The notes: a model not told the origin generated them from the sequence alone. A DNA stretch of 64,000 nt from Gemmatimonadota bacterium (GCA_029863645.1 JAOTVA010000007.1:1-64000), one strand, 5' to 3'. Shown: positions 25,466 to 30,032, counted from the stretch's first letter. Translations and numbers: made by a program.

Positions 25466-25954
25466 TCAGGCCGCCGGACGGCTCGACGGAGGCCGGTAGA
25501 CCGCGAGGTCCAGCTCGCGCGTCCGGCGCCGCGCCCAGCGCTTCGGCACCACCGCTTGATGGGCCGCAAGTCCGAGCAGGTACCCCACCCCCGTACCCAG
25601 GTGGATCCATCCTAGCGCGGACAGCCATCCCGGGGCCGTCACCGCTTGGATGAGGTACCCGCTTACGACCATCGGCCCGAAGACCCACATGGCCGACAGG
25701 CCGGACCGCCGCCCGGCCTTGATGCCGAGCCGGTACTGCTTCCAGATGTGGTCCACGGCGATGAGCCCGATGGCGAACACGAGGAGAGGCGCCGTCACGA
25801 TATGAGCCTTGAGCACCCAAGGCTGCAGCGGATGATTGATGACAGCAAACTCTCCGACCGGCTCCATCATGTGGTCCATCCACCAGTAGACCAGCCCCGA
25901 AAGGCCCGAGACCACGGAGCCGATCCAGATACACCAACGCGGGAACGGCTTCAA
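25466..25954 (-). CDS. Four-helix membrane protein with conserved histidines (probable b-type cytochrome-like)
   Basis: 162 residues with four transmembrane helices and His residues on or near them (DHMMEP, NHPLQPW, KAHIVTAP, VDHIWKQ, WIHLGTG, AAHQAV). This is the arrangement of DUF4405/cytochrome-b561-type membrane subunits that bind haem b, though haem binding is not proven. It overlaps the FMN-binding protein gene by 4 bases (ATGA). It is the natural candidate for the quinol-facing partner that passes electrons to the exported flavoprotein. Confidence 0.75.
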   Translation of the reverse strand: MKPFPRWCIWIGSVVSGLSGLVYWWMDHMMEPVGEFAVINHPLQPWVLKAHIVTAPLLVFAIGLIAVDHIWKQYRLGIKAGRRSGLSAMWVFGPMVVSGYLIQAVTAPGWLSALGWIHLGTGVGYLLGLAAHQAVVPKRWARRRTRELDLAVYRPPSSRPAA

Positions 25955-26514
25955 CGGGCAGTCTCCGAGAGCGGGTCGATCACTTGGTGGAGGGCCAGCG
26001 CGCGCCGCGCGGCGCGAGTCGCCGCCCCCGCAGTGAGCGTCGCGCCTGTGATCGTCGCGATATCACCCCGCAGGGAGAGCGCCCGGTCGAGCCTGCGCCC
26101 ATTGAATTGGCGTAGCCACCCGTCCGGTGCGCGATACTCCGGCGGTTCGCGAAAGCTCACGGTTTCGATGCGCACGACGCGTCCGTCGGTGCCGACCACG
26201 ATCATGAGCACCTGCGGGAGGGTGCGGACCCGGTGCGCGTCGAAGTACGCGACTCCGACTGGCTCGCCGCCGCGTGAGGCCACGTAGTAGCTGACCACGC
26301 TCGACCGGACCTCCACATCGGGGCCGGCGAGGCGCTCGGCGGCGGCGAGGTCCTCGTCGCCCAGGAAAGCCGTCCGTCGTTCGAGCTGTGCATCCGGAAA
26401 CGCGAGCGCGAGGGCCTCGTCCTGCGTGAGCGTCTGGGCCCCGGCGATGGCCGGGAAGACCGCCGCCCCGAGGCAAGCGAGTGCAGTCAAGGCGCGTCTT
26501 CTCAGAATAGCCAC
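25951..26514 (-). CDS. Exported FMN-binding domain protein (RnfG/NqrC-type)
   Basis: 187 residues starting at GTG 26514, where the signal peptide begins (MAILRRRALTALACLGAAVFPAIAGAQ). The C-terminal motif D151-IATITGATLT contains the Thr-Gly-Ala-Thr sequence that receives FMN through a phosphoester bond (Thr159) in RnfG, NqrC and related proteins. ApbE, the transferase that makes this bond, is encoded two genes upstream in the same operon. It overlaps the porin gene by 13 bp and the four-helix protein by 4 bp. It is predicted to be a periplasmic one-electron carrier. Confidence 0.85.
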   Translation of the reverse strand: MAILRRRALTALACLGAAVFPAIAGAQTLTQDEALALAFPDAQLERRTAFLGDEDLAAAERLAGPDVEVRSSVVSYYVASRGGEPVGVAYFDAHRVRTLPQVLMIVVGTDGRVVRIETVSFREPPEYRAPDGWLRQFNGRRLDRALSLRGDIATITGATLTAGAATRAARRALALHQVIDPLSETAR

Positions 26515-27767
26515 CCCAACTGGACGTTGAATTGATTCACGCCCGTATCGGCCTCGTTCGAGTGGATCTGGTACCCGAGTTTGGTGACGACCTGGGGGGC
26601 AGGCTTCCACGCGAACCCGAGCGACGTCACCGTGAGGTCGTTCGCGGGGTCGGGCGAATACCCTGCCGCCACGCTCCGCTGCGTGTCGACGCGCTCGTAC
26701 CGCACGTACGGAATGAGCTGATGCGCTGTGTCCGTGCGCCGCAGCACGTTGTAGCCCGCCTCGAGGTACCAACCCAGCATGGCCGACCCGATGCCATCCG
26801 GGCCGGTGAGGCCATTGAGCTGGTTCAGCTCGTCGGCTTGGTCCACCTGGGCACCCGCCATGAGCGCGCGTAGGTCCCACCCGCGCAGGTCGAGGTCTCC
26901 GTGGACATCCCAGACGAACACGCGGCCACCTACGTCCTCCCCGGCCAACTGCTGGCCCTGAGTGGTCTGGCCGTGGTACGCGGAGGCTCCGAGGATGAGC
27001 CCAGGGGTGCCGACGAAGTCGAAACGAGCCGCGACGCCCAGGTCCTCAGCCAGTGCGGTCGCCCCCTTCTGACGTCCTCCCCGCAGTCCGGCCGCCGTGA
27101 AGCCGGAACCGTCGAAGGAGTTCATGAGGTACGCGCGCCAGGCGAACGCATCGGTCCCGCCGAAGAGACCGATGCCGTTCTCGCGCCACGTCGTCGGGAT
27201 GATGCGACTCTCGGTGACCGACCGTTCCGTGCCGAGAAAGACGGGCGGCTCGTGCAGCTCGTTGACGAGGCCGAGAGGAGCGAGCACCAAACCCGCTCTG
27301 ACGCCGACGTTGTCGGTCAACTTGTAGTCGAGGTAGGCGAACTCGAGGAAGATCTCGCTGGCGTGCTCGACCTCGATCTCGGAGTTGAACAGCAGACGGT
27401 CGTTGAACTTGTAGCCGACGTAGAGGATCGCACGCAGCGCGTCGAAGCGGTCCAGGGCTCCGGAGGGCCCCCCTCCTTGTGTTTCATTGGCGAATCGCTC
27501 GTACAGGATCTCACCATATCCGCCAATCGAGACGCCTTCACTCACCCGGTATACGCGTGACGCGGCGGGTCCCAGGCCTTGGACGGAGGAGTCGGCTTGG
27601 ACGATGTCGCCCCCCAAGCTGACCCGCTCCAATTCTCGAGTGATCGCCTCCACCTGACGCTCGAGCAAAGCGATGCGAGCGGAGTCCGTGGCCTGCGCCA
27701 TGAGCTCAGTGTCCGGCGCGCTGAACGCGGTCACGGCGAGAACCACGAGGATCGGTGCGATCTTCAC
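26502..27767 (-). CDS. Outer-membrane beta-barrel (porin-like)
   Basis: 421 residues. A signal peptide (to about LMAQA) is followed by a short coiled-coil (IALLERQVEAITRELERV) as in OprP/porin-like trimers, then a long series of alternating aromatic/polar strands ending with a C-terminal aromatic residue (QLGWLF), the BamA-recognised beta-signal. Segments such as GGYGEILYERF, AILYVGYKFNDRLLFNSEIEVEH and EIFLEFAYLDY are typical of the phosphate-selective-porin-like group. It lies between ApbE and the FMN-binding protein, so it probably provides an outer-membrane path or anchor for that flavin system (inference). Confidence 0.85.
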   Translation of the reverse strand: MKIAPILVVLAVTAFSAPDTELMAQATDSARIALLERQVEAITRELERVSLGGDIVQADSSVQGLGPAASRVYRVSEGVSIGGYGEILYERFANETQGGGPSGALDRFDALRAILYVGYKFNDRLLFNSEIEVEHASEIFLEFAYLDYKLTDNVGVRAGLVLAPLGLVNELHEPPVFLGTERSVTESRIIPTTWRENGIGLFGGTDAFAWRAYLMNSFDGSGFTAAGLRGGRQKGATALAEDLGVAARFDFVGTPGLILGASAYHGQTTQGQQLAGEDVGGRVFVWDVHGDLDLRGWDLRALMAGAQVDQADELNQLNGLTGPDGIGSAMLGWYLEAGYNVLRRTDTAHQLIPYVRYERVDTQRSVAAGYSPDPANDLTVTSLGFAWKPAPQVVTKLGYQIHSNEADTGVNQFNVQLGWLF

Positions 27768-27771
27768 GAGT

Positions 27772-28779
27772 CTATCGTTCCTTGTCTGGCTGGGGTGATG
27801 CGGGGGGCTCTAGGAGCCACGGCTCCATGGCCGAGGTCCAGGCGGGGCGTACCGTTTCGCCGTCGAGTTCGAGGAAGAGCGCGGCCACACCGGCTTGCTC
27901 CGCCCACGCGATACCCGTTCGAGGGCCCATCACGTAGAGCGCGGTCGACAGAGCGTCGGCGGTATAGGCGTCCGCATCGACGACGGTGACGCTTCCCCAA
28001 GGGTCGACCGGGAGTCCGCTGCGCGGATCGAGGATATGGCGTCCCCGCTCGGAGCTGCCGCTCGTAGACGCCGATCCGTCGTGGACCGAGAGGGTGGCCG
28101 CGGATTCAAAGCGGCGAAGTGGGTGCGCGACGTCTACGATCCAGGGTGACGCGAACGGGGCGAACGCCAAGACCTGCCCCCCGAGGTCCAGTAGGACCCG
28201 GGCCTCGCTGGGTACAGGCGACTCGTCCATCAATCGGCGGGCCGCCCGAAGCGCCGCGCCCTTCCCGAAGCCGCCCGAGTCCATCCAGGCGGCCCCGGAC
28301 GACCGCATCAGACCCCGCTCGCCAAGCTCGACCGCATTTGGGCCGCTCGCTGCGAGGGCCGCTGCGAGCTCACCCGCTTGAGGCGAACGCCCGCTCCCTC
28401 GCAGGTCCCAGGCGTCGATGAGCGCACCGATTCGGGTGTCGAAGGCGCCGGAGGTCGCATCAGCCCAGCCCGAGCTCTCCCGCAGGAGCGCAGCGAGCTC
28501 GCCGTCCACATCAGTCCAGCTGCTCGGCGGCGCCTGGTTCAGGCGGCCCAACGGGGTCGAGGGGTCCCAGGTGTTGAGCAGGGCATCGATGCGCTCGACT
28601 TCACGGAGCATCGATTCCCCGAGTCGGTCCGCCGTGGCCCTGTCGACACCCTCGATCACCACGTGGAAGCGCGTGCCCATCAGCCACGCCTCGCGCTCGA
28701 CGCGTGGCATGAGGGAGGGGGACAGCAGGCCGGCCGCGAGGTGCTGCAGGGCCAGAACGACCCAGAGGGTGAGGCTCAA
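27772..28779 (-). CDS. apbE: FAD:protein FMN transferase ApbE
   Basis: Attaches FMN to Thr of exported target proteins, using FAD and Mg2+. The 335 residues start with an N-terminal signal/anchor (LWVVLALQHLAAGLLSPSL). The catalytic domain includes LMGTRFHVVIEG, IDALLNTWDPSTPLGRLNQ, SGAFDTRIGALIDAWD, VLLDLGGQVLAF, HILDPRSGLPV and SVTVVDADAYTADALSTALYVMG, all ApbE blocks. It is the first gene of the minus-strand operon; its likely substrate is the FMN-binding protein two genes down. A Fur-box-like palindrome sits 21 bp upstream of the start codon. Confidence 0.92.
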   Translation of the reverse strand: MSLTLWVVLALQHLAAGLLSPSLMPRVEREAWLMGTRFHVVIEGVDRATADRLGESMLREVERIDALLNTWDPSTPLGRLNQAPPSSWTDVDGELAALLRESSGWADATSGAFDTRIGALIDAWDLRGSGRSPQAGELAAALAASGPNAVELGERGLMRSSGAAWMDSGGFGKGAALRAARRLMDESPVPSEARVLLDLGGQVLAFAPFASPWIVDVAHPLRRFESAATLSVHDGSASTSGSSERGRHILDPRSGLPVDPWGSVTVVDADAYTADALSTALYVMGPRTGIAWAEQAGVAALFLELDGETVRPAWTSAMEPWLLEPPASPQPDKER

Positions 28780-28799
28780 TCCGTGACCCTATTTGCGAA

Positions 28800-28814
28800 T
28801 GAGATCCGTTCTCA
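28800..28814 (-). promoter_or_regulatory. Fur-box-like palindrome upstream of apbE
   Basis: TGAGATCCGTTCTCA is a 7-1-7 element with outer arms TGAGA/TCTCA, close to the TGAGAAT-N-ATTCTCA form of Fur/Zur family boxes (two mismatches per arm or fewer). It lies 21 bp before the apbE start and also in the promoter region of the divergent CMD gene. Metal regulation of this operon is therefore possible. Confidence 0.35.
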
Positions 28815-28946
28815 ACTATCAGGGCCGAGAAGCTAGCCCTCCCCTGCGGGGCGGACAAGCGCTTGGGGAACGGCTTTCCAACCGGCCTCGGGCCACCCAC
28901 TTTGGCGATCCGGATTCGGTGCTCAGCGAAGAAAGGAGAACACGAC

Positions 28947-30032
28947 ATGCGCGGTTCAGCCCGTCCGCCCCACCCACGCCTCTTGGTCCTGTGCTCCTTG
29001 GCCCTGTTCGGGACGCTCCTGCCGCGGACCTCTACGGCGCAGCAGCCAGCAGCCCCCGTCGGCGCGTACGACGCTGCGCCCTACCTGGGCGAGATCCGAG
29101 ATGCCGTTCTGTACGGTGACATCTGGGAACGTCCACAGCTCTCCCCCAGGGATCGCAGCCTGATCACCGTTGCCGTGACCCAGGCGCTCTATGCGACCAA
29201 CGAGCTGCGGATCCACATGGGTAGGGCGCTCGACAACGGGGTCACTCAGGCCGAGATCTCCGAGCTCATCGCCCATGTGCTGTGGTACTCGGGATTTCCG
29301 ACTGGCGTGAACGCGGCCCGAGTCGCCGCGGAGGTGTTCGCGGAGCGTGGCCTCCCGACCACACCCCCGGGGGCCTCCTCGCGCCAACCGCCGGTGAATC
29401 CGGAACTCGAATTCCCCGGGGCCTTCCCCCAGACGCCCTATCTGCGCGACCTGCTCAACGAAGTCGTCTACGCCGAGACGTGGGAGCGCCCCGAACTTTC
29501 ACCCCGCGACCGGAGCCTCATCACGGTCGCTGTCGGTGCGTCCCTTTATGCCTCGAGTGAGGTCAGGTATCACGCGGGGCGAGCCCTCGACAACGGGGTC
29601 ACCCAGGAAGAGCTCTCGGAGGCCGTCACCCACGTGACCTTCTACTCCGGCTTCCCGACCGGCGTCAACGCAGCCCGGGTCCTGGCGGAGGTCTTCGAGG
29701 CGAGGGGCCTTCCCCTGCCTGACTCCCGTTTTCCGGGAGCGCCCTACCTCGACACGCTCATCGACGGGCTCGTGTATGGTGATACGTGGACTCGGCCGGA
29801 GCTGTCGCCCCGAGACCGAAGCCTCGTGACCATCGCGATGACCCAGGCGGCCTACCAGACGGACCAGCTGCGGGTTCACCTCCGCAGGGGACTCGACAAC
29901 GGCATCACCCCCGAGGAACTGTCCGAGCTCATGGCACAGGTCACGCTCTACTCGGGCTTTCCTTCGGGGGTCAACGGGTCGAGGGTGCTCGCCGAGGTGC
30001 TCACCGAGCGTGCGATCCCTTTGCCGAATTAG
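28947..30032 (+). CDS. Exported protein with three tandem carboxymuconolactone-decarboxylase domains
   Basis: 361 residues: signal peptide (to about STAQ) and three CMD-fold repeats (about 40-140, 165-260 and 265-361). Each contains SPRDRSLITVAV, a GRALDNGVT-like turn and an xVxxYSGFPTGVNAARV-like stretch. The repeats lack the AhpD CxxC redox motif and look like gamma-carboxymuconolactone decarboxylase. The third repeat has Gln in place of the His that precedes YSGFP in the first two. CMD proteins normally are single-domain, cytoplasmic and hexameric, so a secreted three-domain chain would be a half-hexamer in one polypeptide. The start is ATG 28947 after AGGAG. Confidence 0.88.
   Translation: MRGSARPPHPRLLVLCSLALFGTLLPRTSTAQQPAAPVGAYDAAPYLGEIRDAVLYGDIWERPQLSPRDRSLITVAVTQALYATNELRIHMGRALDNGVTQAEISELIAHVLWYSGFPTGVNAARVAAEVFAERGLPTTPPGASSRQPPVNPELEFPGAFPQTPYLRDLLNEVVYAETWERPELSPRDRSLITVAVGASLYASSEVRYHAGRALDNGVTQEELSEAVTHVTFYSGFPTGVNAARVLAEVFEARGLPLPDSRFPGAPYLDTLIDGLVYGDTWTRPELSPRDRSLVTIAMTQAAYQTDQLRVHLRRGLDNGITPEELSELMAQVTLYSGFPSGVNGSRVLAEVLTERAIPLPN

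Follow-up and report, generated by a model that had tools for sequence, protein, structure and literature searches.

The window (i.e., the whole 64-kb stretch of DNA that was analyzed, part of a 3.9-Mb draft genome) contains four genes on the minus strand that run from 28779 to 25466 in the order apbE, barrel, FMN_bind and four-helix protein, with a predicted operator in front of them:

28795..28813, no strand assigned: predicted Fur box (operator) GCGAATGAGATCCGTTCTC, 15 nt upstream of the apbE start codon
27772..28779, minus strand: apbE, FAD:protein FMN transferase (PF02424, E=6e-52; TTG start)
26502..27767, minus strand: dedicated outer-membrane porin (barrel), from the AlphaFold2 model, Foldseek and conserved columns
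25951..26514, minus strand: exported FMN_bind protein (PF04205, 26.2 bits)
25466..25954, minus strand: four-helix membrane protein, likely a di-haem b cytochrome, from the AlphaFold2 model and invariant His

The genes are tightly packed: apbE and the barrel gene are 4 nt apart, the FMN_bind gene starts with a GTG at 26514 within the last codons of the barrel gene, and the TTG of the four-helix gene lies across the FMN_bind stop. The first-pass annotation had placed one coupled operon here, and all four genes were found in that arrangement; the evidence also supports its description of a coupled set of flavin redox genes, in which the enzyme that attaches the flavin is encoded together with a carrier in the periplasm, a membrane donor rich in His and a barrel in the outer membrane, while its interpretation as a whole holds only in part. 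The product of the divergent gene on the other side of the Fur box (28863-30032) is a carboxymuconolactone decarboxylase protein; it carries three CMD domains in tandem and what appears to be an export signal, a layout that looks unusual for that family.

Components of the cassette

The apbE product matches its Pfam profile over the full length (positions 1-266 of 266) and has an apparent N-terminal export signal, as judged by eye; on sequence, its identity as an ApbE is certain. The match of the FMN_bind protein is modest and lies above the Pfam cut-off of 22 bits. Its acceptor motif reads D-I-A-T-I-T-G-A-T, with the acceptor at Thr159 when counted from the GTG start, the same position that the first-pass annotation had given; G-A-T is invariant in 20 of 20 FMN_bind homologues, and the T-G-A-T acceptor falls within their sole run of invariant residues. 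An exported ApbE and an FMN_bind domain with a [ST]-G-A-[ST] acceptor, which together define an ApbE-dependent extracytosolic flavinylation system, are both present, and Thr159 is predicted to carry covalent FMN. To our knowledge, no ferric reductase is known within the FMN_bind subfamily to which the cassette protein belongs.

Neither the barrel nor the four-helix protein has a Pfam or NCBIfam family above cut-off, and PDB sequence searches with the two proteins returned nothing meaningful. The AlphaFold2 model of the barrel (mean pLDDT 92) consists of an N-terminal helix (20-58) and 16 strands, and Foldseek matched it to general and specific porins (OmpT, OmpC, OprP and OmpM1, with E down to 2e-12); as modeled, the barrel is a porin rather than a wide conduit. 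The likeness to OprP is in fold only, with no Pfam match to the phosphate-selective porin family PF07396, and the features of a TonB-dependent receptor are lacking, there being 16 strands instead of 22, no plug and no Pfam match. Among 78 homologues, 20 barrel columns are invariant, including E130, E132 and E134, which form a Glu ladder on a single strand; because these are alternate residues, they probably face the lumen. A conserved N169-E170-x-H172-E173 motif, of which H172-E173 is invariant in the same homologues, lies in the loop after strand 5. No relatives of the barrel occurred among the viral contigs scanned.

In the first-pass annotation the barrel served as a route to the outside, with the FMN protein handing on electrons, at the barrel or through it, to extracellular acceptors. 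This model draws on the presence of a quinol-side donor, a carrier, the attaching enzyme and an outer-membrane protein, complete in one operon, and on the Desulfuromonadales and methanotrophs that are among the relatives. Mtr-type conduits, in which a wide barrel surrounds a multihaem cytochrome, resemble the cassette in coupling an outer-membrane barrel to a periplasmic redox protein. However, the cassette encodes no c-type haem protein, its 16-strand fold is that of OmpT, OmpC and OprP and not of a wide conduit, and its single FMN domain has neither a multihaem partner nor a second carrier. The Fur box and the linkage to iron genes in relatives, including Feo genes (both described below), also fit assimilation better than respiration. 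Because of the porin fold and the Fur control, we rejected an electron conduit through the barrel as first choice, and extracellular electron transfer appears quite unlikely as the function of this operon.

The model of the membrane protein (pLDDT 93) has helices at residues 3-29, 44-76, 82-104 and 108-153. Two His in helix 2 (H51 and H69) and two in helix 4 (H118 and H132) are invariant among 43 homologues, and H41 is present in 90% or more of them. With helices 2 and 4 running in opposite directions, two bis-His haem sites, H51/H118 and H69/H132, would form, one at each membrane face, and from this model the protein is likely a di-haem b cytochrome. Its best Foldseek matches, to hydrogenase-1 cytochrome b, were not significant, and one relative showed a match to cytochrome b561 below threshold. 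Searches of Pfam and NCBIfam gave no match to NapH, MsrQ, PepSY, DsbD or NQR/RNF proteins, nor was PF14358 (DUF4405) matched. The DUF4405 flavinylation-associated cytochromes (PMC10979944) are likewise small membrane proteins with buried invariant His pairs, encoded beside apbE, but they have six helices rather than four, and the Pfam DUF4405 match seen in one relative of the cassette protein (E=0.42) is below threshold; the 2024 paper on these cytochromes contains no porin.

Conservation of gene content and order

The nearest named relatives of the draft genome are Gemmatimonadota. Across 200 genomes of this phylum, 44 carried the barrel, and the phylum holds at least 12 full cassettes; independent cassette loci were also found in a second phylum. 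Loci whose barrels share about 50% or more identity retain the order apbE-barrel-FMN-four-helix wherever the contig is complete and unmasked, and a second set of loci, at about 33-37% barrel identity, has the order barrel-FMN-membrane protein-apbE. When one genome per species was scanned, 588 barrel relatives emerged, and the 80 best were retained. Among these 80 loci, which are not fully independent of one another, the barrel was followed by FMN_bind in 79, the lone exception being at a contig end, and the four-helix protein came next in nearly all; same-strand apbE was present in 51. They span more than 10 phyla and include Gemmatimonadota, Acidobacteriota, Planctomycetota, Verrucomicrobia, Elusimicrobiota, KSB1, Caldithrix, Dadabacteria, Desulfuromonadales, Myxococcota and Methylococcales. 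This gene order persists across phyla at barrel identities as low as about 37% and is not due to chance. An ApbE was encoded somewhere in all 28 genomes checked, most of which lacked an adjacent same-strand apbE, as compared to 7 of 14 control genomes.

The first-pass annotation had called the placement of a barrel between ApbE and the carrier "not a standard layout," which is borne out insofar as two surveys of flavinylation clusters do not describe it (PMC8238504; PMC10979944) but not insofar as the order proved to be conserved and widespread. It had also held that a barrel conserved elsewhere without the flavin genes would speak against a joint system, and no such separation was seen in close relatives: Flavin-free barrels are confined to distant relatives, mostly below about 36% identity, with one (L050) at 37-41%.

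In nearly half of the wider relatives, the window's cytochrome is replaced by a second type of four-helix protein with invariant E50, H53, H55 and H68 (e.g., L151, 8984-9472), which has no Pfam family and, by profile comparison, no detectable homology to the type in the window; the window holds only one of the two. In two other loci (L061, 11569-14725, and L183, 3-1119), the cassette is adjoined, in convergent orientation, by genes for a second ApbE and for a NapH-like protein whose N-terminus resembles FMN_bind, such that two flavin systems lie side by side.

Predicted Fur boxes and iron genes

Matches of at least 13/19 to the Fur consensus occurred upstream of 42 of 75 cassettes but of only 34 of 463 other gene starts (Fisher 1e-21), and in 76 of 2831 random stretches of the cassette loci. 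With a matrix built from sites of relatives, excluding the window, the box at 28795-28813 ranked first of 63,982 positions in the window (15.5 bits; next best, 12.3). The best Fur match of the whole locus lay 300-420 nt or less upstream of the cassette in 35 of the 42 loci outside the matrix (17/20 with two duplicates removed, plus 8/12 in the second phylum and 10/10 new loci, both after removal of duplicates and contig-edge cases), a count from a matrix that was seeded with the classical consensus and may miss lineage-specific boxes. Three loci with strong tandem Fur boxes just outside the fixed search stretch (L156, L157 and L162) were still counted as misses. As a control, we took 11 related barrels (about 25-35% identity) that lie beside a gene for DHOR and, in several cases, one for a Rieske protein; a Fur match ranked first in one of the 11, and was weak. 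In view of the independent loci, the rank-1 positions and this control, we rejected a chance occurrence. We also considered whether the box serves the divergent carboxymuconolactone decarboxylase gene, but it stays with the cassette in relatives that have other upstream neighbors. By sequence, the operon belongs to a predicted Fur regulon. At one locus (L167, 9060-10322), a strong Fur box also precedes a distant barrel that has no flavin neighbors, an arrangement consistent with members of the barrel family being iron porins.

Fur control could also be expected if the barrel were a TonB-independent receptor for ferric siderophores or citrate and periplasmic reduction of the chelate by the FMN protein released the iron. 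Francisella has TonB-independent iron receptors that are predicted 14- to 16-strand barrels (PMC5378763), and the conserved acidic and His-Glu residues of the cassette barrel would suit such a role. However, no siderophore synthesis or export genes were recognized as recurrent cassette neighbors, and we regard a receptor of this kind as unlikely.

Iron genes themselves adjoin a minority of cassettes. FeoB lies within 7 kb of the cassette in 6 of the best 80 of the 588 relatives (L096, L101, L102, L105, L114 and L131, each from a different lineage; Pfam confirms FeoB in the first four), whereas about 0.3 would be expected, because there is about one clear FeoB per genome and roughly 1 Mb was examined. 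A fur gene is beside the cassette in four loci, directly upstream in L118, L125 and L144, and recognized by similarity in L160. In the Caldithrix locus (L105, 7125-7907), the four-helix protein, which is of the second type, has a C-terminal FeoA domain (PF04023, 7.9e-21), and the stop of this fused gene overlaps feoB. In L096 a PepSY_TM protein lies between the cassette and feoB, and in an Acidobacteria genome (L120, 8295-9797) a multicopper oxidase lies between the barrel and the FMN gene. Two FeoB genes are present in the window's genome, and no FeoB or fur was identified among the annotated immediate neighbors of the cassette in the window.

These neighbors also bear on whether the operon might be an iron-sparing module, in which, under iron shortage, a periplasmic flavin route replaces iron-rich carriers in serving another reductase. 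Flavodoxins are flavin carriers under Fur control, and the cassette in the window likewise places a flavin carrier under Fur and includes no iron transporter. However, its membrane partner is itself likely a haem protein, the FeoA fusion and FeoB linkage point elsewhere, and the dedicated porin is left without explanation; iron sparing thus seems very improbable.

A predicted iron-uptake route

Fur control together with Feo linkage points to iron as the substrate, and it is the Fur box that carries the most weight in this sequence-derived reading. Computation shows which parts are present and how their order is conserved, as well as the Fur box, the porin fold and, in relatives, the linkage to Feo and fur. 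We consider it probable that the cassette serves to take up iron for assimilation, as a Fur-repressed system that reduces Fe(III) and comprises a porin of its own, a reductase with covalent FMN and a di-haem b cytochrome. Under iron shortage, Fur would leave the box at 28795 and the operon would be made. The porin, most simply the supplier of the periplasmic acceptor from outside, may offer an acidic pore by which Fe3+ or a small ferric chelate, and possibly Fe2+, crosses the outer membrane. The FMN_bind protein in the periplasm would receive its FMN at Thr159 from ApbE, the four-helix cytochrome would carry electrons from the quinol pool to this FMN, and the reduced flavin would convert periplasmic Fe3+ to Fe2+. 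Fe2+ would then enter the cell via FeoB, which is encoded elsewhere in the window's genome and beside the cassette in some relatives.

The components place the cassette next to the flavinylation clusters of Meheust et al. (2021; PMC8238504), which also combine ApbE, an exported FMN_bind carrier and a membrane electron donor and were divided into NapH-, MsrQ-, PepSY-, DsbD- and NQR/RNF-like classes. In that study, PepSY, MsrQ, VIT1 and P19 clusters were tied to iron, and some classes to iron assimilation and Fur. Unlike any of them, the cassette has a four-helix donor that falls outside all five classes and a dedicated porin in its core, and the words "porin" and "FeoB" are absent from the text of that paper. 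A Fur-controlled hypothetical porin, psp, was reported in Geobacter and Desulfuromonas and guessed to pass iron (Rodionov et al., 2004; PMC545781). It too is a porin-like outer-membrane protein with tandem Fur boxes upstream and a weak likeness to phosphate porins, but it was reported without mention of a flavin, cytochrome or ApbE partner; psp and the cassette barrel are possibly members of the same family. Entry of iron by way of a porin and Feo is established in E. coli, where the ferrous OmpC/FeoB route (PMC7315122) combines a general porin fold with FeoB, as proposed here, but involves neither a dedicated porin nor a periplasmic reductase, and the porin is under EnvZ/OmpR.

No description of the four-gene system was found in the literature searched, in which subscription papers were sparsely covered. 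We lean toward regarding it as an ancient, widespread and undescribed route, in which a dedicated porin for iron, a ferric reductase bearing covalent FMN and a minimal four-helix di-haem cytochrome supply FeoB without TonB in more than 10 phyla. If so, many Gram-negative lineages, among them Gemmatimonadota, Acidobacteriota, Planctomycetota, Desulfuromonadales and methanotrophic Methylococcales, would share one means of acquiring iron, which is invisible to current annotation because Pfam has no family for two of the four proteins. A function could then be assigned to many "hypothetical" porins and FMN_bind proteins, and the route would represent a TonB-free counterpart of siderophore uptake that is testable in cultured methanotrophs.

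Distant paralogues of the barrel form a conserved set of their own together with the di-haem oxidoreductase DHOR and, in several cases, an exported Rieske protein (L040, L043-L048, L049, L052 and L053; L049, 7855-10741, is on contig C90 of the window's own genome). Some of these loci are near genes for a DtxR-type regulator (DtxR-FeoA), FeoB or Nramp, indicating that the wider barrel family also accompanies metal-uptake genes, and the DHOR/Rieske loci are possibly a parallel metal-uptake set based on haem and Fe-S.
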